Shown: piece after piece, positions 349 to 32,136 of the stretch
Numbering within the stretch: the stretch's first letter is position 1
Layout: every line of letters begins with the position of its first letter
Assembly: GCA_017541265.1 (NCBI GenBank)
Contig: JAFXZK010000002.1
Location: forward strand, 1 to 42,505
Direction of reading: 5' to 3'
Length of the DNA stretch: 42,505 nt
Source of the DNA: Bacteroidaceae bacterium
GTDB lineage: Bacteria; Bacteroidota; Bacteroidia; Bacteroidales; Bacteroidaceae
Translations under genes and position numbers: made by a program
The notes under the pieces: model-generated
The model's input: only the letters and a program-made list of their open reading frames with translations
The model's database searches: none
Told to the model about the DNA's origin: nothing

Positions 349-480
349 TCCTATGCCGCGTGAGCCTCAATCCTATGCCGCGTGAGCCTCAATCCTATGC
401 CGCGTGAGCCTCAATACTATAGGTTGTGAGCCTCGAAGCCATAGGATGTGAGAACGGAAGCCTAAGGGTGTGTTTTGCAA
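349..480. repeat. 22-bp tandem repeat array (locus 1)
   Basis: Three identical 22-bp units (349-370, 371-392, 393-414) containing tatgccgcgtgagcctc are followed by three diverged units on the same 22-bp register, which keep the gtgag core. The array fills most of the 203 bases between the first gene and the decarboxylase. No unique spacers are present, so it is not a CRISPR array. Confidence 0.85.
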
Positions 481-11900: not shown

Positions 11901-13098
11901 CCGCGAGATTACCGAGTTCGACTATACCGCTATCAACAAACTGCTGCAAGCTAACAGCCTCGAATCGTTCAAGGCAGGCGAGCGACAAGAGCTGGGCAAC
12001 GTCCTGCTCACCGGTGCAACTGGATACTTAGGAATACATGTGCTCAAAGAATTGATTGATTCCGACGCCAAGACCATCACCTGTCTCGTGCGCGGAAAGA
12101 GTCAGGAAGATGCCCAGCGACGTGTACGCAACCTGCTGTTCTACTATTTCAGCCGCCGTTTCGATGAGCTTTTCGGCACACGTATCTTTGTCGTTCAGGG
12201 CGATGTGACACAGGATATTGCAGCTGTGGCCGGCGATTTCGTCGCCGGCATTGATACAGTCATCAATTGCGCTGCAAACGTAAAGCATTTCTCGAAGGGT
12301 ACGGACATTGAGGATGTCAACATCGGCGGAGCACAGCGTTGTGTCGATTTCTGTTTGCAGACTGGTGCGGCACTCGTTCATGTATCGACGACTTCGACCG
12401 GTGGCGTATGGATTGGTGGCAACCTGCCGGCACCGGTACTCACGGAGCAGAACATCTGGTTCGGGCAGTATCTCGGCAACCAATACATGCACTCCAAGTT
12501 CCTCGCTGACCGTCTCATCCTTGATGCTGTGGCAACGAAGGGCCTCCGGGCAAAGATTATGCGAGTGGGCAACCTTGCGGCACGTAGCTACGACGGCGAG
12601 TTCCAGGTGAACTTCTCCACGAACAGCTATATGGGTCGTATCAAAATCTTCAACATGCTCGGCTGCTGTCCCTTCGACCAGTATGACCAGCCTACGGAGT
12701 TTTCGCCCATCAACGAGACCGCCCGCGCAATCGTCCTGCTCGCCACGACACCGAAGGAGTGTACCGTCTTCCAGCCGTATAGCACGCACACGCGCTTGTT
12801 AGGTAATGTGCTGCAGGTACTGGATAAGCTCGGCACGAAGATGCAGTTCGTGGAACCCGAAGCCTTCGGTATGGCAGTACAACAGGCGGCGTTAGACCCG
12901 ACCAAAGCGTCCTTGCTCACCACGATGCTCGCTTATCAGAACATCGCCCATGGGCAGCCGACGCAGATTGTGGACCGCAACAACGCCTACACCTCGCAAG
13001 TGCTCCTGCGACTTGGATTCCAATGGACCGAACCCGACAACGAGTATATCGGTCGTATGTTGACCGCCATCTCGCAATTAGGTTTCTTTGATGTATAA
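5971..13098 (+). CDS. Two-module non-ribosomal peptide synthetase with terminal reductase (C-A-T-C-A-T-R)
   Basis: 2375 residues from the ATG at 5971 (an in-frame TTG lies 9 bases upstream). Domain order: condensation 1 (HHxxxDG at 130-136), adenylation 1 (YTSGTTGTPKG ~550-560, YGPTE 682-686, YRTGD to D767, A10 lysine K871), carrier 1 (atypical VGLSS, Ser927), condensation 2 (HHLVCDG 1113-1119), adenylation 2 (YTSGSTGVPKG from ~1553, YGPTE 1685-1689, K1874), carrier 2 (LGGTS, Ser1929) and a thioester reductase (TGATGYLG 2014-2021; Tyr2172/Lys2176). The product should be a dipeptide released as an aldehyde or alcohol; amino-aldehydes of this kind can cyclise to pyrazinones. My hand alignment gives pocket residues D-A-H-F-G-G-G-V-Y for A1 and D-A-M-F-S-G-G-I-F for A2; the Asp fits alpha-amino acids, but the substrates are not assigned. 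The leading condensation domain suggests an acylated or modified first residue. A1 has a very short segment before the YTSGTTG loop. No phosphopantetheinyl transferase lies nearby. Confidence 0.93.
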   Translation: MRSPLSQAQAGVYYACETTVSDEYNYQNTVLFTLPEDADLVRLQQAVQGALCAHPYLGSRVVVNEEGVPEIESADEGAEFRVERLEVTEEEWKAVQKTFSQTMDVHGEKLYRTEIYSVKGGKSYLYIDLHHVLTDGFSLTLLLREIERVYNGKKPAGEMMDGVAIANEEAAQRADETLMSEAREWYAKTFCDAADTDSLPIPEAIAESKESKVESRYQFFPLSVSKEEVQAIVKRFDTKESVIMQTAFAQLLATYSAEEKASYCTAFWGRTDRRTLGAITMMVHTLPVFMQTKADTPIAEMLRGMEEQLQLTQKYQYYAYPDAVRDLGLNNQVMFVYQGSVLNDKRGLCLGGTMAAYTDLRRPTPGWKLSAELFETADQYALKLGYSTVDYSEAFLNQLAEAYSMILRSMVTAERVCELEYCSESQLKWLDARNPKDPKASEGSLIARFKQHVAEQPNAICVVAGDKRLTYAEVDKLSDTLDPQYTERCGEHVIGYSVPRNEQMIIVPLAIAKAGMTALPLDSSYPAERLDYMRADAAQYEGGDAFILLYTSGTTGTPKGVMLSEQNILTFCDFHAKHIGLTSESRYATYAGYGFDAFMHDLWGCLIAGAAMYVIGDDIRFDLDAIHEFILREQITHIFMTTQVATQLVQNFPDIPCLQHLGTGGEKLMSLEPPTYRLLNGYGPTESTVYVCSYWVEKKEPNIPIGHSNDTAQLFIVNKYGKRVPWGAAGELLVAGPQVGLGYLNQPQKTADVFVEWDGKHVYRTGDIVRYRYDGEIEFVGRKDGQVKIRGFRIELKEVEAVIRQFEGIKDATVQAFDYPSGGKFIAAYIVSDQKVDIQALNAFIMDQKPPYMVPAVTMQIDAIPLNQNQKVNKRALPEPKAQTDDTLKEAAPLNVLEEQLADIVADIVNNHDFGITTDLRYVGLSSISAIKLATQVYKRFGVQLDAKLLVKGANIQTIENEILKAMLGGNRDTVIPESRDTENDLTVPYPLSHAQTGVYFECMKNPTSTLYNIPMRARLPLEIDDEALRAAVTQVVNNHPELFVHFRTNDTGVEQVVDNSLEFRVESLEKKEDELDAFRAEFVRPFNLSKDLLCRFSIVRTEQALYLYCDMHHLVCDGASYDVFFNELCTLLDGGTIDKEMCSYAQFVADEQAAEKGEEYAAAKDFFHSQLAQVEGATEVPADLTNPKDGEIGQVYAPMDIKAAEALAQRAGVTPAGATLAAVFYTLARFTNTDDLCITTISNGRSNLKMANTIGMMVNTLALSSKITDQTVEAFVRETGEHFEQTLAHENYPFAQVAADYDLTAEIMFAYELGVLSEYKVNSQAIATENMELNVPKFKISFYIIEVHGQPSVAIEYDNGRYSRELMQSLAQSVSNAVSAFAAQPTAALRSVSLMDEAQTKLLDSFNETTVPYDNTQTILSLFKAQVAKTPDALALVFRDKRFTYREVDEISDRIAAGLHPSTNVIAIKVQRSEWMVLGALAVLKTGCAYLPLDPSYPEERLSYMQQDANSCMLLTEKELEELQSNQIIQNNQNTLNALSTLKPSDLFILLYTSGSTGVPKGVMLEHGNLVAFCHWYQRYYDLHTGHKVAAYASFGFDACMMDLYPALTCGAAVYIVPEDLRLNLPELGRYFDAEGITHSFMTTQIGYQFATNVECHSLQHLSVGGEALSALNPPTDYKMYNGYGPTECTIFTTTYLLQEYEQHIPIGKPLDNLQLFIMDTNGQRLPFGATGELWVSGPQVGRGYLNLPERTAESFVTRNGLRFYRTGDIVRYLPDGNIQFVGRRDGQVKIRGFRIELKEVEAVIRQFVGIKDATVQAFDYPNGGKFIAAYVVGDQQIDVAALNAFIRERKPPYMVPSATMQIDVIPLNQNQKVNKRALPAPKIQADDHDYVAPANDTEKLFADIFASVLSLDRVGATDNFFELGGTSLMVTRVIIEADKAGKHIAYADLFAHTTPRALATLVDGQSAVNESETVDREITEFDYTAINKLLQANSLESFKAGERQELGNVLLTGATGYLGIHVLKELIDSDAKTITCLVRGKSQEDAQRRVRNLLFYYFSRRFDELFGTRIFVVQGDVTQDIAAVAGDFVAGIDTVINCAANVKHFSKGTDIEDVNIGGAQRCVDFCLQTGAALVHVSTTSTGGVWIGGNLPAPVLTEQNIWFGQYLGNQYMHSKFLADRLILDAVATKGLRAKIMRVGNLAARSYDGEFQVNFSTNSYMGRIKIFNMLGCCPFDQYDQPTEFSPINETARAIVLLATTPKECTVFQPYSTHTRLLGNVLQVLDKLGTKMQFVEPEAFGMAVQQAALDPTKASLLTTMLAYQNIAHGQPTQIVDRNNAYTSQVLLRLGFQWTEPDNEYIGRMLTAISQLGFFDV
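6205..6615 (+). repeat. Two in-frame simple-sequence tracts in condensation domain 1
   Basis: Tracts at 6205-6238 (gagttgagagattagaggtg; FRVERLEVTE) and 6590-6615 (aaagtaaagaatcgaaagtc; ESKESKVESR) are low-complexity G/A-rich insert-like segments between conserved motifs. Confidence 0.5.
8313..8614 (+). repeat. Duplicated adenylation C-terminal subdomain, copy 1
   Basis: About 300 bases from RKDGQVKIRGFRIELKEV to the A10 motif closely match 11322-11623, at protein and largely at DNA level, at a 3009-base offset. The remaining parts of the two adenylation domains are much more divergent. Confidence 0.75.
9148..9190 (+). repeat. In-frame TTTAGAG tract in condensation domain 2
   Basis: agtttagagtttagagttg and continuing repeats encode NSLEFRVESLEKKED between conserved parts of the domain. 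The unit is the same as in the tracts at 6205-6238 and 5015-5055. Confidence 0.6.
10541..10602 (+). repeat. In-frame CAGAATAATCAGA/CTCTGAA tract in adenylation domain 2
   Basis: Short direct and inverted repeats (cagaataatcagaatactc, then ctctgaatgctctgagtac) encode QSNQIIQNNQNTLNALSTLK. This replaces the usually longer segment just before the YTSGSTG loop. Confidence 0.6.
11322..11623 (+). repeat. Duplicated adenylation C-terminal subdomain, copy 2
   Basis: Partner of 8313-8614. Both encode near-identical residues, including IRGFRIELKEVEAVIRQF and NQNQKVNKRALP. Confidence 0.75.
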
Positions 13099-13131
13099 TG
13101 AACTAAAATGATTATCCGCTGTCGCACCTAT

Positions 13132-13219
13132 CTCCATAAGTCCCTGTACTTATCTCCATAAGTCCCTGTACTTATTGCCATAAGTACACGTTCTTATCGC
13201 CATAAGTACAGGGACTTGT
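13132..13219. repeat. 22-bp tandem repeat array (locus 2), partly palindromic
   Basis: Four units of 22 bp start at 13132, 13154, 13176 and 13198 with core ccataagtccctgtactta; the last two are diverged. Each unit contains an ataagt...acttat dyad, and the first and last units can pair as long inverted arms. It lies just downstream of the NRPS. Confidence 0.85.
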
Positions 13220-13279
13220 TGTGCTATCTGCCAGACATCTGGGAATCAGGCGCTTCCATAAGGCGTCCTGTCGTCCATT

Positions 13280-13354
13280 TGGGGATGCTCTAACACCCTC
13301 CGCCTGCGCCTGAGCGTGTATATCAATAATGGCCGTTCTATCGTGATTGAGTGA
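13280..13354 (+). pseudogene. Remnant of a surface-protein C-terminal tail
   Basis: The last codons before a TGA at 13352-13354 read SVYINNGRSIVIE, which matches the GVYIYNGKKLVIK tail of the first gene in this window. The matching upstream tail sequence (ccctccgcc... resembling KPSA) is in another frame, so the copy seems frameshifted. No start or body remains. Probably a decayed gene end, or a tail left after a rearrangement. Confidence 0.4.
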
Positions 13355-13362
13355 GTAAAAAA

Positions 13363-13425
13363 CTACCAATCTTGTCTGGAAACCTACCAATCTTGTCTGA
13401 AAACCTACCAATCTTGTCTGCAGAC
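13363..13425. repeat. 21-bp tandem repeat array (locus 3)
   Basis: Three units of 21 bp (13363, 13384, 13405) share ctaccaatcttgtctg and differ only in the last bases. It is unrelated in sequence to locus 2, 144 bases upstream. Confidence 0.85.
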
Positions 13426-13575
13426 TGAAAATAATGCCTGGACCTTGAGGGTACAGGTGTTTTTTTTGACCAATAGCTCATTTTGCAGGCTGAAACCGCC
13501 CTCAAAGTCCGAAGACAACAGGCATTTCAGAAAATCAAGCTACCTTCAGGCAACAATCGACGGTTAAAATCTCTC

Positions 13576-13596
13576 TATAGCTCATTTTGAGCTATA
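13576..13596. repeat. Perfect 9-bp inverted repeat
   Basis: tatagctca and tgagctata are separated by ttt. A partial copy (tagctcattttg) lies about 100 bases upstream. It could be an operator or small hairpin ahead of the small-peptide promoter. The rest of 13426-13575 shows nothing recognisable. Confidence 0.5.
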
Positions 13597-13627
13597 CGCC
13601 GAATATTCACTTGCGAAAGTTCAGTAA

Positions 13628-13635
13628 TAACTTTG
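13628..13635 (+). promoter_or_regulatory. Possible -7 element for the small peptide gene
   Basis: TAACTTTG matches the Bacteroidetes -7 consensus TAnnTTTG and lies 45 bases before the ATG at 13681. No good TTTG is seen at the usual ~20-base spacing upstream. A GGGACGGG/CCCCGTTCC hairpin (13638-13659) follows in the predicted leader. Confidence 0.4.
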
Positions 13636-13680
13636 TAGGGACGGGTTTTGCCCCGTTCCTGCATTAAAGCAACAAATAAT

Positions 13681-13893
13681 ATGAAAAAGAACGATTACAA
13701 GAATCCCAATATGCTTGTTGTGGAGATTCAACAGAGACAATTTCTGGCAGCAAGTGGCAACCCCGTTGTACCTGGAAGCGGTGACAACCCCGAAGATAAC
13801 CCTGGAGGCGGTAATATCCGTGAATATAGCGGCGGAACAGGCGATGACGGCTCCAATTCCAGCGCCGGCAGCGTATGGAACGGTGAATGGTAA
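13681..13893 (+). CDS. Small peptide with N-terminal LAAS motif, Gly/Asn/Ser-rich tail
   Basis: 70 residues from the ATG at 13681; the frame is open upstream only through a TTG. The first ~25 residues (MKKNDYKNPNMLVVEIQQRQFLAAS) share the pattern basic start - P - hydrophobic V(V)E - Q - (M/F)LAAS with the second small protein at 35974-36129. The rest is Gly/Pro/Asn/Ser-rich, acidic and apparently disordered, ending VWNGEW. There is no signal peptide or membrane segment. Such short proteins are common in Prevotella-like genomes, but I know no assigned function. A precursor peptide is one possibility; no modifying enzyme is adjacent apart from the NRPS upstream, which does not need a precursor. 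Confidence 0.65.
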   Translation: MKKNDYKNPNMLVVEIQQRQFLAASGNPVVPGSGDNPEDNPGGGNIREYSGGTGDDGSNSSAGSVWNGEW

Positions 13894-13921
13894 GGCCTTT
13901 TGACCCTTTTGGCACATATTT

Positions 13922-13956
13922 CTCCCTTATCTCTTGCAGGTGAGGGAGATTTTTTG
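13922..13956 (+). terminator. Probable intrinsic terminator after the small peptide gene
   Basis: ctccctta pairs with tgagggag (one G-T pair) around a ~10-base loop and is followed by a run of T. It lies 29 bases after the stop and overlaps the upstream part of the next promoter. Confidence 0.6.
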
Positions 13957-13964
13957 TAATTTTG
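13934..13964 (+). promoter_or_regulatory. Bacteroidetes promoter for the FKBP/GH97 operon
   Basis: The -7 element TAATTTTG (13957-13964) is preceded by TTG (13934-13936) with 20 bases between. The predicted start is ~40 bases before the ATG at 14014. Confidence 0.6.
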
Positions 13965-13977
13965 CGGCGCGAAATAA

Positions 13978-14013
13978 AACAGTAAATAGTAAATTGTCAA
14001 ATTGTAAATTTAC
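13978..14013 (+). repeat. TAAATTGTAAATT simple repeat in a leader
   Basis: Degenerate repeats of aaatagtaaattgtcaaatt directly precede the first FKBP start codon. The same type precedes the small peptide at 35974 and lies upstream of ssb at 37867-37904. Confidence 0.65.
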
Positions 14014-14601
14014 ATGGTAGATAAAATCAGCTATGCTCTGGGGCTTGGCATCGGTCAGCAGATTAAGAGCATGAACATAGAGAACTTCAGCATCGAGGAC
14101 TTTACGAAGAGCATTGCGGATGTGCTTGAGGGCAAGCCGACAGCGTTCTCTGCACGCGAGGCACAGATGATGCTGCAAGAGTATTTCACGAAGAAGCAAA
14201 AAGAGGAAGCTCAGGCACATATTGCTGAGGGCAAGGCCTACCTTGATGCAAATGCCAAGAAAGCTGGCGTCGTCGTAACGAAGAGCGGCTTGCAGTATGA
14301 GGTTTTGCAGGAAGGCACGGGCAAGAGTCCAAAGGCAACCGATACGGTTCGCTGCCATTATGAAGGACGTCTGCTCGACGGCACAATCTTCGACAGCAGC
14401 TACAAGCGCGGCGAACCTGCCGACTTCGGACTGAACCAGGTCATTCCCGGCTGGACGGAGGGTGTGCAGCTGATGAAGGAGGGTGCGAAGTTCCGCTTCA
14501 CCATCCCTTATCTGCTGGCCTACGGAGAGCAAGGCGCCGGCGCAAGCATTCCACCATTCAGCACGCTCATCTTCGACGTAGAACTCGTCAAAGTGCTTTG
14601 A
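14014..14601 (+). CDS. FKBP-type peptidyl-prolyl isomerase, cytoplasmic, Mip/FkpA-like
   Basis: 195 residues without a signal peptide. The N-terminal ~80 residues (YALGLGIGQQIKS ...) form the helical dimerisation region of Mip/FkpA-like proteins. The FKBP domain occupies ~95-195, with VRCHYEGRLLDGTIFDSSY, NQVIPGWTEGVQLM and PYLLAYGEQGAG, so the key Tyr, Phe-Asp, Val-Ile and Trp positions of the prolyl pocket are present. It is the first of three consecutive FKBP genes and probably assists folding in the cytoplasm, while the next two act outside it. A promoter lies upstream. Confidence 0.9.
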   Translation: MVDKISYALGLGIGQQIKSMNIENFSIEDFTKSIADVLEGKPTAFSAREAQMMLQEYFTKKQKEEAQAHIAEGKAYLDANAKKAGVVVTKSGLQYEVLQEGTGKSPKATDTVRCHYEGRLLDGTIFDSSYKRGEPADFGLNQVIPGWTEGVQLMKEGAKFRFTIPYLLAYGEQGAGASIPPFSTLIFDVELVKVL

Positions 14602-14604
14602 AAA

Positions 14605-14646
14605 AACAATAACCAATAAACATTCAACAATAACCAATAAACATTC
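14605..14646 (+). repeat. Exact 21-bp tandem duplication
   Basis: aacaataaccaataaacatt plus c occurs twice head to tail between the first and second FKBP genes. Its period matches the 21-22-bp arrays elsewhere in the window. Confidence 0.9.
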
Positions 14647-14656
14647 AAAAAACATC

Positions 14657-15523
14657 ATGAAAAAGTTTTCAATTATTGCAGCCGTTGTACTGGCTGCTAT
14701 CATGGGAAGCTGCACAAACGGCACTCCCAAAGCTGACCTGAAGAACGACGTTGACACTCTGAGCTATGCTTTCGGTATGGCACAGACTCAAGGTCTGAAA
14801 GAGTATCTGACCATGCGCATGGACGTCGATACAACCTATATCGACGAGTTCATCAATGGCTTGAACGAAGCCGCCAATGCCGGTGACAACAAGAAAAAAG
14901 CTGCCTACTATGCAGGCCTGCAGATTGGTCAGCAGATTAGCCAACAAATGATTAAGGGCATTAACTACGAAATCTTCGGCGACGACAGCACACGCACCAT
15001 CAGCCTGAAGAACTTCATGGCTGGCTTTGTTTCCGGCACAACCGGCAAGAACGGCCTGATGACCGTCGAGGAAGCTTCGCAGACCGCACAGACAATGATT
15101 CAGAGCGTCAAGGCAAAGGTCATGGAAGAGAAGTACGGCGACTGGAAGAAGCAGTGCGAGGAATACATGGCCAACATTGCCAAGAAGGAAGGTATCAAGG
15201 AGCTTGGCGACGGTGTTTACTATGAGGTCATCACCGAGGGCAAGGGTGCCATTCCCTCCGACACCAGCCGCGTCAGCGTCAACTACGAGGGCAAGCTCCT
15301 CAACGACACCATCTTCGACAGCAGCTACAAGCGCAATGAGCCTGCCAAGTTCCGTTGCAACCAGGTAATCCCCGGCTGGACAAAGGCTCTGACCAACATG
15401 CCTGTCGGCTCTACATGGATGGTTTACATACCCCAGGAACAGGCTTACGGCGACCGCGACACGGGCAAGATTTCTCCTTTCTCCTGCCTCATCTTCAAGA
15501 TTGAACTGCTGGGAATAGAGTAA
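14657..15523 (+). CDS. FKBP-type peptidyl-prolyl isomerase, lipoprotein
   Basis: 288 residues starting with a lipoprotein signal (AAIMGSC, Cys19). A Mip-like helical region (YAFGMAQTQGLKEYL ... AAYYAGLQIGQQIS) spans ~35-170, and the FKBP domain fills ~185-288 (VNYEGKLLNDTIFDSSYKR, NQVIPGWTKALTNM, QEQAYGDRDTG). It is likely anchored in the inner or outer membrane, folding envelope proteins. The close likeness to the genes on either side indicates tandem duplication followed by separation of cellular location. Confidence 0.9.
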   Translation: MKKFSIIAAVVLAAIMGSCTNGTPKADLKNDVDTLSYAFGMAQTQGLKEYLTMRMDVDTTYIDEFINGLNEAANAGDNKKKAAYYAGLQIGQQISQQMIKGINYEIFGDDSTRTISLKNFMAGFVSGTTGKNGLMTVEEASQTAQTMIQSVKAKVMEEKYGDWKKQCEEYMANIAKKEGIKELGDGVYYEVITEGKGAIPSDTSRVSVNYEGKLLNDTIFDSSYKRNEPAKFRCNQVIPGWTKALTNMPVGSTWMVYIPQEQAYGDRDTGKISPFSCLIFKIELLGIE

Positions 15524-15526
15524 TTT

Positions 15527-15670
15527 GGAAGTAAAAGAAGTTAGAGGAAGTTAAAGAAGTTAAAGGACGATAGTTCTGCACCATAAACAAAGGCAGCATC
15601 CTAAAGGTATTGTCCTTTAACTTCCCAGTGAGCAAAGCGAACGATAATTTCTTTAACTTCTTTAACTCCC
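15527..15670. repeat. Inverted GAAGTTAAAG simple-sequence element
   Basis: Direct repeats of gaagttaaagaagttaaag at 15537-15567 face inverted copies (cctttaacttcc, ctttaacttctttaactcc) at 15612-15668, so the whole gap between FKBP genes 2 and 3 can fold on itself. Confidence 0.65.
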
Positions 15671-15686
15671 TGAAATAAGAGAACAA

Positions 15687-16577
15687 ATGAAGAAACTAAT
15701 CCTATTTGCACTATGCGCCTGCATTTCGCTGGGCGCAGGTGCTGCCAAGAAGACTGGCAAGAAGAAGAAAGGCAAGGAGCCTGTCGAGGTGGTCGATACC
15801 GTATGCATCGACACCTTCAGCTACCACTTCGGCCGCGCCAACTCCAATGGCTTGAAAGGCTTTCTTGCACAGCGCATGGGCGTCGATACGACTTATATTT
15901 CTGACTTCCTGAAAGGCTTTGAGCAAATGACGCTCACCGAGGCGGACAAAAGGGAGAAGGCTCGTCTGGCAGGTATCGAGATTCGTCAGCAGGTTGAGGA
16001 GCAGGTTTACCCCGGAGCCTCTAAGCAAGTGAACGACAGCACCGATGTGCTGAACAAGGCACTCTTCGTCCAGGGCTTCCGCGACGGCTTCTCCGGCGAG
16101 AATGCCACCGTTTCGATGGACAGCACCCAGAAGCTCGTCAAGAAGCAGATGGAGTACTACCACAAGGTTAACATGGAGAAGAAGTATGGCGCGAACCGCA
16201 TCGCCGGCGAGGAATTCCTCAAGGCCAATGCCAAGAAGGACAGCGTGAAGGTCACTCCGAGCGGACTGCAGTACAAGATACTGACCGTCGGCACAGGCGA
16301 ACTGCCCACGAAGGAGGACAAGGTGAAGGTCAACTATGAAGGCCACCTCATCGACGGCACCGAGTTCGACAGCTCGTACAAGCGCAACAAGCCCGTCACC
16401 TTCCCCGTAGGACAGGTCATTGCAGGCTGGACAGAAGCACTTTGCATGATGCCCGTCGGCAGCAAGTGGATGCTCTATGTGCCACAGGAACTGGCATACA
16501 AGGACCGCGAACAGGCCAAGATTCCTCCCTTCTCCTGCCTTATCTTCACAGTTGAGCTTCTGGAGATTGAAAAATAA
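15687..16577 (+). CDS. FKBP-type peptidyl-prolyl isomerase, secreted/periplasmic
   Basis: 296 residues. A signal peptide (MKKLILFALCACISLGAGA) is followed by a lysine-rich stretch (KKTGKKKKGKEP), then the helical Mip-like region and a C-terminal FKBP domain (~195-296: VNYEGHLIDGTEFDSSYKR, GQVIAGWTEALCMM, QELAYKDREQ). The Lys cluster after the signal peptide is not seen in the two sister proteins and may bind the acidic cell surface. Third member of the FKBP array; GH97 follows 76 bases downstream. Confidence 0.9.
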   Translation: MKKLILFALCACISLGAGAAKKTGKKKKGKEPVEVVDTVCIDTFSYHFGRANSNGLKGFLAQRMGVDTTYISDFLKGFEQMTLTEADKREKARLAGIEIRQQVEEQVYPGASKQVNDSTDVLNKALFVQGFRDGFSGENATVSMDSTQKLVKKQMEYYHKVNMEKKYGANRIAGEEFLKANAKKDSVKVTPSGLQYKILTVGTGELPTKEDKVKVNYEGHLIDGTEFDSSYKRNKPVTFPVGQVIAGWTEALCMMPVGSKWMLYVPQELAYKDREQAKIPPFSCLIFTVELLEIEK

Positions 16578-21517: not shown

Positions 21518-21578
21518 GGTATTAAGTTTTTTTGAGAGTATGTCAAAGTGTTGGAAGCCAGAACCCGTGTGATGTTGT

Positions 21579-21666
21579 CAAACTAAGCGTGCCTAATCGC
21601 CAAACTAGACGTGCCTAATTGAGCAACTAGACGTGCCTAATTAAGCAATTAGGCGTGCTTTACAAC
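21579..21666. repeat. 22-bp tandem repeat array (locus 4)
   Basis: Units of 22 bp start at 21579, 21601, 21623 and 21645 with core actagacgtgcctaatt; the last is diverged. The array lies between the reductase stop (21702) and the DUF486 start (21517). Nothing else is recognised in this 184-base gap. Confidence 0.85.
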
Positions 21667-21701
21667 AATTTGACATACTTCCTCTTTGTTGGTTTAATCA
21701 G

Positions 21702-24077
21702 TTATTTCGACAGATACTCGTGCATAGCAGCTGCAGCACGGCGTCCGTCGCCCATGGCCAGGATGACCGTTGCGCCTCCGCGAACGATGTCGCCACCCGC
21801 AAAGATGGTCGGGATGTTCGTCTGCATACCTTCGTTCACGACGATAGTATTCTTGCGGCCAAGCTCCAAGCCCTGTATCGAGGTGGGCACGATGGGGTTG
21901 GGACTCACGCCGACAGCCACGATTGCCTGGTCGATGGCGATGGTCTCTGTGGCTCCGGGAATGGGCACAGGCGAACGGCGTCCGCTGGCATCCGGCTCAC
22001 CAAGCTCCATCTTCTGAAGCACAACCTCGGTGACGTTGCCCTTCTCATCTGCGTGATACTCAATTGGATTGTGCAGGGTGAGGAACTCGATGCCCTCTTC
22101 CTTTGCGTGCTTCACCTCTTCCAATCGTGCAGGCATCTCTTCCTCGCTGCGACGATAGGCGATGAACACGCGCTCTGCACCCAGACGCTTTGCCGTACGG
22201 CAGCTGTCCATGGCGGTGTTTCCGCCGCCGACCACCATCACGTTCTTTGCTTTCTTGATGGGCGTTGCATATTCCGGGTTGCTTGCGTCCATGAGGTTCA
22301 CGCGCGTCAGGTACTCGTTGCTCGACATGATGCCGTTGAAGTTCTCGCCCGGAATGCCCATGAAGTTGGGCAGACCAGCGCCGGAGCCAACGAAAATGCC
22401 CTTGGAGCCTTCGTCCTCCAACTCCTTGACAGTTATTGTCTTTCCCACGACGCAGTCCTTGACGAACTTCACACCGATCTTCTCCAGATTCTGTATCTCG
22501 ACGTCTACAATCGCGTTGGGCAGACGGAATTCGGGTATGCCGTACTTCAAGACACCGCCTATTTCGTGCAGAGCCTCAAAGACGGTCACGTCGTAACCGG
22601 CTTTCGCCATATCTCCTGCGAAGCTCAATCCCGAAGGACCAGAACCGATGACGGCAATCTTCTTGCCGTTCTTCTCGGCCACCTCGGGCAGAGACATCTG
22701 TCCGCTCTCGCGTTCGTAGTCAGCGGCAAAGCGTTCCAGGTTGCCGATAGCGACAGCAGGCTCCTTCATCTTCAGGTGGATACATTGTGCCTCGCACTGC
22801 TTCTCCTGCGGGCAGACGCGACCGCAGACAGCGGGTAGGGCAGAGGTCATCTTCAGCACACGGGCAGCGTCGAGGAACTCGCCGCGCTCGATGTTCTTGA
22901 TGAACGACGGGATGTTGATGCCGACAGGACAGCCCTGCATACACGTCGGGTTAGCGCAATCGAGACAACGCTTTGCCTCTGTCATTGCCTGCTCAACGGT
23001 CAAACCTTGGTTCACCTCTTCCGTGCGAGTCGTTGCTCTATAGACAGGGTCTAGCTCAGGCATCTTGCAGCGCTCAATCTGCATACGCTCCTTAGCCTTC
23101 ATCGACTTGCGAAGCTCCTCACGCCACGGGGCGTTGCGGTCAGTAAGCAGACCCACCCCCGACCCCTCCCTTGCAGGGAGGGGAGTAATTACATTATTCT
23201 CCTTGATAGTTTGGTGACTGCTCCCCTCCCTACAAGGGAGGGGTTGGGGGTGGGTCTGCTGGGTCTGCCACTTCTCATACGCTTCTGCCTCTTCCGCCTT
23301 AAACGCGCCTCCGCGACGCATCATCTCGTCGAAATCAACCTGATGACCGTCGAACTCGGGGCCGTCAACGCAGACAAACTTCGTCTTGCCGCCAACGCTT
23401 ACGCGGCACGCGCCACACATACCTGTGCCGTCAACCATGATGGTGTTGAGGCTGACGTCAGTCGGGATGTCGTATTTCTTGGTGAGCAAGCAGCAGAACT
23501 TCATCATGATAGCGGGGCCGATGGCAAAGCACTTATCGACCTTTTCGCGCTGGTTGACCTCTTCCATGCCGACAGTCACCACGCCTTGCTTGCCGTAGCT
23601 GCCGTCGTCGGTCATGATGATGACCTCGTCACTTGCAGCGCGAACCTCGTCTTCAAGGATGATAAGTTCCTTGCTACGACCAGCAATGACGCTGATTACC
23701 TTGTTGCCCGCTGCCTTAAGAGCCTGAATGATTGGCAGCATGGGAGCTGTTCCCACGCCACCACCAGCACAGAGCACGGTGCCGTATTTCTCGATGTGAG
23801 TGGCGCGACCGAGAGGGCCGACCACGTCTGCGATGTAATCTCCTTCATTCAGGGCGCAGAGCTGAGTTGTGCTGGCACCGACCGTCTGGATGACAAGGGT
23901 GATGGTTCCCTTCTCTTTGTCGCTTCCGGCTATGGTAAGGGGCACACGCTCACCCTTCTCGTCAACGCGAACGATAACGAAGTGGCCAGCCTTGCGTGCC
24001 TTTGCAATCAATGGTGCTTCAACGTCCAGGCGGAAAACCTTCTCGCTGAACTGTACTTTCTTGACAATCTTGAACAT
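21702..24077 (-). CDS. Fused NfnB-like ferredoxin:NADP reductase subunit and GltD-like flavoprotein
   Basis: 791 residues from the ATG at 24077 (18 bases inside the longest frame). Residues ~1-270 are an FNR-like module: VFRLDVEAPLIA, RVPLTIAGSD, GGVGTAPMLPIIQALKA, and a 2Fe-2S cysteine cluster DGTGMCGACRV ... CVDGPEFDGHQVDFDEM. Residues ~315-791 are a GltD/NfnA-like module with a Cys-rich 4Fe-4S region (RCLDCANPTCMQGCPVGINIP, CGRVCPQEKQCEAQC) and two dinucleotide folds (IGSGPSGLSFAGDMAKAGYDV; VVGGGNTAMDSCRTAKRLGA). Similar fusions are common in Bacteroidales and annotated as glutamate synthase small subunit or NADH-dependent ferredoxin:NADP oxidoreductase; electron transfer between ferredoxin and NAD(P)H is the likely role. 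A 115-bp palindromic element is inserted in frame at the junction of the two modules. Confidence 0.9.
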   Translation of the reverse strand: MFKIVKKVQFSEKVFRLDVEAPLIAKARKAGHFVIVRVDEKGERVPLTIAGSDKEKGTITLVIQTVGASTTQLCALNEGDYIADVVGPLGRATHIEKYGTVLCAGGGVGTAPMLPIIQALKAAGNKVISVIAGRSKELIILEDEVRAASDEVIIMTDDGSYGKQGVVTVGMEEVNQREKVDKCFAIGPAIMMKFCCLLTKKYDIPTDVSLNTIMVDGTGMCGACRVSVGGKTKFVCVDGPEFDGHQVDFDEMMRRGGAFKAEEAEAYEKWQTQQTHPQPLPCREGSSHQTIKENNVITPLPAREGSGVGLLTDRNAPWREELRKSMKAKERMQIERCKMPELDPVYRATTRTEEVNQGLTVEQAMTEAKRCLDCANPTCMQGCPVGINIPSFIKNIERGEFLDAARVLKMTSALPAVCGRVCPQEKQCEAQCIHLKMKEPAVAIGNLERFAADYERESGQMSLPEVAEKNGKKIAVIGSGPSGLSFAGDMAKAGYDVTVFEALHEIGGVLKYGIPEFRLPNAIVDVEIQNLEKIGVKFVKDCVVGKTITVKELEDEGSKGIFVGSGAGLPNFMGIPGENFNGIMSSNEYLTRVNLMDASNPEYATPIKKAKNVMVVGGGNTAMDSCRTAKRLGAERVFIAYRRSEEEMPARLEEVKHAKEEGIEFLTLHNPIEYHADEKGNVTEVVLQKMELGEPDASGRRSPVPIPGATETIAIDQAIVAVGVSPNPIVPTSIQGLELGRKNTIVVNEGMQTNIPTIFAGGDIVRGGATVILAMGDGRRAAAAMHEYLSK
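23146..23260. repeat. 115-bp palindromic element inserted in frame in a coding sequence
   Basis: Two 40-bp arms (23146-23185 and 23221-23260) are inverted copies with two mismatches, around a 35-bp spacer. Each arm contains its own smaller palindrome of the form cccctccctt-gcagggagggg. On the minus strand it is translated as HPQPLPCREGSSHQ ... TPLPAREGSGVGLL, roughly residues 273-311 of the reductase, joining its two modules. Confidence 0.9.
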
Positions 24078-24089
24078 AGTTATTATATT

Positions 24090-24114
24090 GAACATTGAAC
24101 ATTGAACATTGAAA
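24090..24114 (-). repeat. TTCAATG simple repeat
   Basis: attgaacattgaacattgaa repeats lie between the four-helix-bundle gene and the reductase gene, on one side of the former. Confidence 0.75.
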
Positions 24115-31793: not shown

Positions 31794-31898
31794 GGAAAAT
31801 CGGATTTTTTTTAATATAAACGTCTTTCTGCCTCAAATTTGCGACATTGTGGCATTTCACGCTCCATCATGTTATTTCCAACACAACAGGGAGTGTTG

Positions 31899-31964
31899 AT
31901 TGCTTCATCATGATAAAGCAATTGCTTGGTCATGATGAAGCAATTGCTTAGTCATGACAAAGCA
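31899..31964. repeat. 22-bp tandem repeat array (locus 5) with dyad units
   Basis: Three units start at 31899, 31921 and 31943: attgctt - catgat - aagca with small changes. Unit junctions form agcaattgct palindromes. It lies between the divergent promoters of the RecQ-tail-like gene and the large surface protein. The remaining parts of the 581-base gap 31666-32246 show only the palindrome and the promoters. Confidence 0.9.
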
Positions 31965-32136
31965 ATGAAGACTCCATGCGTTGTTTTGAAACGAAACGTG
32001 TCGTGCGTCCAATGGTTTGCTGCTGCTATTATTTCAACAACGAGGCGAAGCGATATGCGGAATGTATAATTTTTGCCAGATGAAACAAATTTGTTGCCCC
32101 GATTCGCGTGTTTTTAACATATCTTAACGCAAGATG

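Follow-up and report, generated by a model that had tools for sequence, protein, structure and literature searches.

The window, by which we mean the whole stretch of 42,505 nucleotides analysed here from contig JAFXZK010000002.1 of a Bacteroidaceae bacterium (genome G000), carries six tandem arrays, all of which TRF found where the initial annotation had placed them. None is assigned a strand. Array 1 (348-452) is made of 22-bp units, ATCCTATGCCGCGTGAGCCTCA, for which TRF reports 3.3 copies at 348-420 with a degenerate continuation to 452, and it has inverted arms ACATCCTATG (346-355) and CATAGGATGT (440-449). Array 2 (13121-13221; TRF 13129-13217) consists of four near-palindromic 22-bp units of what we call family A, the final unit being inverted relative to the first ones (self-complementarity p=0.0035). 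On its left is a terminal-repeat-like element end on the plus strand (13108-13128, ATGATTATCCGCTGTCGCACC), which has 11 copies in the genome at 3 or fewer mismatches (control 0) and adjoins arrays in the genome sample described below, and on its right is a plus-strand flank beginning CTGCCAGACATCTGGGAATCAGG (13228-13257) that six of the sampled family-A arrays share. Array 3 (13358-13420) was resolved by TRF into three 21-bp units and was not counted in the dyad class, and array 4 (14605-14648) has two AT-rich 21-bp units of heptamer-like low complexity, which TRF also fits with a period of 7; an AT-rich stretch resembling it is found in the same gap of a related locus (L241). Array 5 (21574-21662; TRF 21581-21658) has 22-bp units of family B, AACTAGACGTGCCTAATTGAGC, with outer inverted arms at 21540-21556 and 21660-21676 (88%) and a p of 0.17 for its own dyad. 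Array 6 (31897-31968; TRF 31899-31966) lies in a divergent gap and has palindromic 22-bp units of family C, ATTGCTTCATCATGATAAAGCA, with a dyad p of 0.011 and larger inverted arms at 31880-31932 and 31933-31985 (77%).

Several other features of the window were recorded. A short ORF of 70 aa without a Pfam match (13681-13893) lies downstream of a large ORF that has non-ribosomal peptide synthetase domains in its first 1000 aa, and three consecutive FKBP-type isomerase genes occupy 14014-16577, several relatives also having adjacent FKBP matches. There was no Rfam match at gathering score in the window, and no phage records similar to window positions 12900-14800 were found. No replication initiator was seen among the approximately 23-25 window proteins or protein parts scanned, so the arrays of the window lack the setting of plasmid iterons. 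Elsewhere in the genome, on contig C11, the segment L014:11252-16899 is plasmid-like and encodes both a ParA-type ATPase and an initiator of the Rep3_N type (E=1.2e-8); directly before the initiator, at about 14560-15290 of L014, are 22-24-bp repeats which we take to be iteron-like and which are a separate source of 22-bp repeats.

The units of families A, B and C recur across the genome. The family A unit reads ATAAGT-NNNNNN-ACTTAT plus 4 bp, that of family B is AATTAGGC-AC-GCCTAATT plus 4 bp and that of family C is GCTTCATCATGATAAAGC plus AATT; further families exist, and two more family-C arrays with flanks that look similar by eye are in the genome sample. The common design, as judged by eye, is a near-palindrome of about 18 bp with a spacer of about 4 bp, and in most families the units are contiguous, whereas CRISPR repeats are separated by unique spacers. 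The earlier description of the units as differing completely between loci therefore needs qualification, because arrays 2, 5 and 6 are members of these recurrent families and look alike in design. The grouping of all six arrays together was partly wrong, and we rejected them as a single class: only arrays 2, 5 and 6 are in near-palindromic dispersed families, while array 1 represents a dispersed family without a dyad (self-complementarity p=0.96) whose relative is a two-unit array on contig C13. Arrays 3 and 4 lend no support to a common process because array 3 has no second copy in the 654-kb genome sample and array 4 is AT-rich and heptamer-like.

The period itself was examined in a sample of 654,230 bp (41 stretches of the genome, the window among them, which together make up about 20% of it) by counting self-identity at lags of 10-120, with five dinucleotide shuffles in 300-base blocks as control. 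Lag 22 was the top repeat period with 48 loci, followed by its multiple, lag 44, with 36 loci and by lag 14 with 27, each count including a floor of 2 that comes from N runs; lag 23 had 6 loci with the same floor, and the five shuffles gave no lag-22 or lag-44 loci beyond that floor. TRF run on 314 kb of the genome found 27 arrays of period 22, and no other period between 15 and 60 had more than 6; there were 3 arrays at 44, 4 at 21 and 1 at 23. Thus, the shared period claimed from the window alone is above chance. A less strict threshold brought the lag-22 arrays listed in the sample to 62; scaled to the complete genome, this may mean about 300. The sample also has peaks at lags 14, 16 and 18 (27, 15 and 15 loci), which are largely AT-rich low-complexity repeats based on heptamers to nonamers, and array 4 belongs there.

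Stretches of four congeners (220-331 kb each) were then compared at one threshold, and the density of lag-22 loci per Mb was 79 in G000, 97 in G080, 59 in G015, 50 in G099 and 33 in G088, the figure for G080 being biased upward because 7 of its 19 stretches were chosen for contigs with listed family-A matches. All four congeners show the 22-bp period with largely different unit sequences. The period distribution that had been proposed as a check, run on the genome sample, does peak at 22 bp, and the relatives do carry the period in other unit sequences. Constant length with changing sequence holds beyond this genome. In G088 (L152-L156, L209-L215) lag 21 (7 loci) nearly equals lag 22 (8 loci). 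In named contigs of Prevotella and Bacteroides type the period is less pronounced than in the congeners: the 51 named contig loci that resemble the window most (909 kb) have 22 lag-22 loci per Mb, and 29 with lower similarity (464 kb), which are largely from Bacteroides and Parabacteroides, have 13, these two groups being split by similarity rank and not by taxonomy. There were no lag-22 loci in 361 kb labelled as the same class but other orders, in 388 kb from other classes of the phylum or in 50 kb of E. coli. Density is not uniform within the genus, since there were also none in 104 kb taken from 29 same-genus relatives around a single gene. When the FKBP locus was examined in 29 relatives, a looser threshold gave one lag-22 match (L259:2990-3051) and one 23-bp array (L256:1132-1223), both of other sequence, and the threshold used for the densities gave none. 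The family-A array and array 3 were absent from this locus in the 29 relatives, but this absence may not concern a truly orthologous site, since only L237 and L239 gave nucleotide matches up to just before the FKBP gene and nothing matches further upstream. Single families have a narrow range: of 139 congeners, 3 have the family-A double unit and 6 have the G015 core pair, three of the six having only one, and among 41 genomes of the family the family-B core was found in 1. Chance or reader bias as the source of the period is ruled out by the shuffles together with the other taxa.

The second property of the arrays is an excess of dyad symmetry. Low-complexity units were left out of the dyad test, which removed 3 of the 62 arrays of the genome sample, and also out of the counts for relatives, the FKBP locus, strand and density. 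In the remaining 59 arrays the self-complementarity of the consensus unit averaged 14.0 of 22 positions against 11.1 for shuffled units, and 23 of the 59 had dyads at p<0.05 where about 3 were expected, about 36 being not individually significant. Among relatives 8 of 33 units of 22 bp were significant at this level (about 1.7 expected), as were 3 of 20 at 21 bp and 2 of 13 at 24 bp, and there were none at 18, 19, 20, 23 or 26-36 bp, where numbers were small. One ten-unit array (L014:11902-12128) has a unit in which a family-A half site is joined to a family-B half site (ATAAGAACGTGCCTAGTTGGCG). It was also seen by eye that the spacers of families A and B and of G015, in several species, often have GCC or GGC next to A or T (TTGCCA, CGCAAA), which may reflect common descent or a second contact.

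The third property is the exactness of the spacing between the symmetric cores. The dominant core of G015, a DISCRIMINATING sequence, is TCAAC(AC or GT)GTTGA. In 220 kb of this genome there are 65 copies of CAACNNGTTG, and all 54 pairs within 120 bp are 22, 44, 66 or 88 bp apart; for the motif CAACRYGTTG, whose centre is RY, there are 51 pairs no more than 300 bp apart, and these have the same four spacings without exception. A whole-genome search in which any spacing from 14 to 40 was allowed gave 255 pairs in G015, 157 in G044 and 132 in G122, every one of the pairs listed being 22 bp apart; a lone core pair in G027 is at 21. In G080 the core AAGTACRYGTACTT, with 18-44 bp allowed, gave 190 pairs, and among those listed all were at 22 except one at 44. 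A neighbour test was also done in which exact cores were the seeds, offsets up to 60 were scanned and the next core was allowed 2-3 mismatches. Cases with the next core at +22 numbered 32 in G015, 47 in G080 and 45 in family A of G000, and in these three sets no next core was at 21, 23, 32 or 33; G015 had one relaxed neighbour at 27 and one at 60, and the small family-B set had 7 neighbours at +22 and 2 at +24. A relaxed scan of G015 (2 or fewer mismatches) had 51 at 22 and single odd spacings of 3, 12, 20, 27 and 36. Before filtering, the mean core identity at +22 was 0.78, 0.80 and 0.85 in G015, G080 and family A, respectively, and 0.11-0.31 at 21, 23, 32 and 33. Among the filtered neighbours, where the filter itself partly picks conserved cores, arm columns were mostly 0.93-1.00 identical, with one G080 column at 0.83 and two further family-A columns at 0.60 and 0.71; the family-A centre was variable, with 0.47-0.71 for central and some core columns. 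Many spacer columns of these neighbours were down to 0.31-0.6, with weak shared bases persisting. In G015, 3 of 28 adjacent pairs of 12-nt spacers were identical, as recent copying would leave. The arrays thus have cores at an exact pitch and spacers that drift, as in an operator array phased by a protein, and holding cores and spacing while spacers drift is the pattern that a row of touching proteins would enforce.

The explanation that we favour, and to which we give about an even chance of being correct, is that the dyad arrays are rigidly spaced sites of a putative dimeric DNA-binding protein that have spread in part within MITE-like elements and undergo fast sequence turnover. Each array would be a cluster of symmetric sites at a rigid pitch of 22 bp, about two helix turns, each site would be bound by a dimer of a candidate sequence-specific DNA-binding protein, and adjacent dimers would pack against one another along the array. 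Such packing would keep the core and the spacing and leave the bases between freer to drift. The site sequences would differ by lineage, the protein would co-evolve with its site and the units of one array could change together. Some families (A in G000 and G080) are partly contained in short MITE-like elements that terminal inverted repeats bound. Proteins that bind repeated sites cooperatively are known at replication and partition loci, namely, the iteron-binding Rep and ParR proteins. A Pfam scan of 10 genes beside G015 arrays found no common function and no candidate binder. The exceptions to 22 weigh against a protein lattice: +24 in family B, 27 and 60 in G015, 21 in G027, the 23-bp array in L256 and G088, where lag 21 has 7 loci and lag 22 has 8. 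The same holds for the spacers that are not fully random, for the roughly 36 of 59 G000 units whose dyads are not individually significant and for the family of array 1, which has no dyad. The initial annotation had offered two mechanisms, a process that copies about 22 bp or protein-phasing sites. Phasing fits better, since in three sets the next core keeps to +22, with none at +21 or +23, and many of the columns in the spacers have diverged; a copying mode alone does not predict this.

The main rival to the protein-phased lattice, which is the better supported of the two, is that the arrays are passive selfish minisatellites. Transposition or slippage would multiply and homogenise 22-bp units in MITE-like elements, the length would come from the founders and no protein would tile the array; we regard this as possible but somewhat doubtful. 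It draws on part of family A in G080, which sits in a short element bounded by ATGATAATCCGCAAAA...TTTTGCGGATTATCAT: both conserved flanks were seen by eye in 11 of the 26 family-A arrays (a 27th cluster is a chance match with a spacing of 16), and the terminal repeat has 71 matches in the G080 genome and 1 in the control. Related ends occur in G000, with the 11 copies genome-wide and the six right flanks in the sample mentioned above. These family-A ends read ATGATTATCCGC / ATGATAATCCGC and are not IS5-like. When a parent IS for family A was looked for by eye, no IS-length pair of ends was present among the G080 matches listed. A precedent, as far as its description goes, is BrickBuilt, a 23-nt minisatellite in a MITE of Porphyromonas gingivalis with IS5-like ends GAGACCTTTGCA and 19 loci (Klein et al. 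2015, PMC4596501). Gaps compared between G000 and G080 also speak for this rival. In one orthologous gap, whose flanking genes are 88 and 85% identical, there are arrays in both genomes with similar copy number and the units differ in concert, being CCAATTAGGCACGCCTAGTTTG in G000 and AAATAAGTACACGTAGTTATCC-like in G080, while four other syntenic gaps have a lag-22 match on one side only, and in one of these the match is a clear dyad array that only G080 has. Arrays therefore both persist with turnover and are gained or lost, the numbers being small. However, terminal inverted repeats, non-coding content and multiple copies, the general marks of a MITE, are found together for part of family A only. 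The G015 arrays have no 11-mer common to the flanks of at least 3 of 28 clusters and so no such frame, yet they are spaced at exactly 22 bp with diverged spacers, which indicates that a MITE-like frame is not what fixes the pitch. In addition, a length inherited from founders leaves unaccounted for the equal pitch and the dyads of unrelated families across species.

Gene positions, which were taken from a simple hexamer gene caller written for this analysis and not from a standard one, bear on whether the arrays act as DNA or as RNA. Of the G000 arrays with genes called on both sides 58 of 59 are intergenic, and BrickBuilt is likewise described as strictly intergenic. The gaps are same-strand for 35 arrays, divergent for 14 and convergent for 9, and 3 further arrays are at stretch ends. 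When five species were pooled, 56 of 71 arrays in same-strand gaps were nearer the upstream stop, with medians of 47 nt past the stop and 182 nt to the following start; G088 was opposite, none of its 4 same-strand arrays being nearer the upstream stop. In the window the arrays had been described as lying upstream of genes. This placement suits array 6 in its divergent gap, but arrays 1, 2 and 5 are better called downstream of a gene because they lie 47 and 23 nt past an upstream stop and, for array 5, 40 nt past the stop of the minus-strand gene 21702-24095. The nearness of the pooled arrays to the upstream stop speaks for dyads that work in transcripts as hairpins, either as terminators or as stabilisers of 3' ends, and A- and T-runs do border many family-A arrays. 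We nevertheless find this explanation improbable. The predicted folding energy was lower for the sense strand in 33 of 71 arrays (p=0.84), that is, no different from antisense, and T-runs at the distal end numbered 16 sense and 10 antisense in the same 71. The centre of the G015 core, read on the sense strand in eight same-strand-gap arrays, was AC in 14 cases, GT in 11 and AT in 1, which is no orientation bias. The tight 10-bp G015 core should not by itself make a good hairpin, 14 of the 62 G000 arrays are in divergent gaps, the window has no Rfam match and a hairpin does not need an exact 22-bp spacing.

Least probable of all is that the arrays are REP/BIME-like palindromes mobilised by a RAYT (a Y1 transposase), for although G000 has a Y1_Tnp gene (C49:17875, E=2.9e-23) with a two-unit family-B array about 270 bp past it, and although a weak Y1 match in L045 has a family-A array at a distance of about 580 bp, the strong Y1 gene is flanked by GC-rich palindromes of its own and Y1_Tnp is present in 40 of 60 genomes of the phylum, including G150, G162, G170 and G186, which show no 22-bp arrays in small samples of 20-40 kb each. 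The Y1 transposase-like gene between GC-rich palindromes (L043, on C49) is probably a REP/RAYT pair in its own right.

The statement that no described element has these properties was too strong in view of BrickBuilt and of the 41-, 23- and 22-nt tandem repeats reported earlier in P. gingivalis W83, which are cited in PMC4596501. As BrickBuilt is presented there, the likeness extends to Bacteroidales hosts, intergenic position, a near-equal tandem unit length, MITE-like ends, restriction to strain or species, variable copy number and a mention of dyad symmetry. It is the nearest described element, but the present arrays fail to match it in unit length and ends: BrickBuilt is one family of 23 nt while the arrays here are of 22 bp with several families per genome, and its ends are unlike those of family A, the G015 arrays having no shared flank and the ends of the other families being not settled. 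REP/BIME sequences, in the account given in PMC3733652, are also short, intergenic, lineage-specific palindromes, but they are dimers 20-100 bp apart with their own transposase and, in that account, no fixed head-to-tail 22-bp pitch; the REP tag is GTAG or CGTC (PMC3733652), and no such tag was seen by eye in the arrays here. Subunits of BldC align on repeated sites whose number varies, as would the putative binder here, but BldC sites are described as asymmetric direct repeats at promoters (PMC5859096), while our cores are symmetric and are dispersed after genes. An order-wide 22-bp period was absent from the literature searched, a single library that included PMC10969869 and PMC5771137, and the same literature had no report of dyad cores that keep a constant 22-bp pitch in congeners while their sequences are unrelated.

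Returning to the protein-phased lattice, we propose, as a tentative extension that we think has somewhat less than an even chance, a candidate Bacteroidales system in which a fast-evolving dimeric binder tiles many intergenic arrays at 22 bp, mostly just after genes, with the protein and its site changing together while the geometry stays fixed. If this is the case, the system would either organise or insulate the chromosome in a new way, or be a novel selfish repeat that comes with a binder of its own. Repeat families are normally recognised by sequence, and the conserved trait here, in G000 and in four congeners, is geometry. From the same pitch with unrelated units one would predict a binder whose footprint repeats every 22 bp, and arrays of this sort can be searched for by period rather than by sequence. 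If confirmed, this would bring to light a system for DNA packing or for gene ends that was previously unknown, or else a selfish element of a new kind, in bacteria that form a major part of the gut community.
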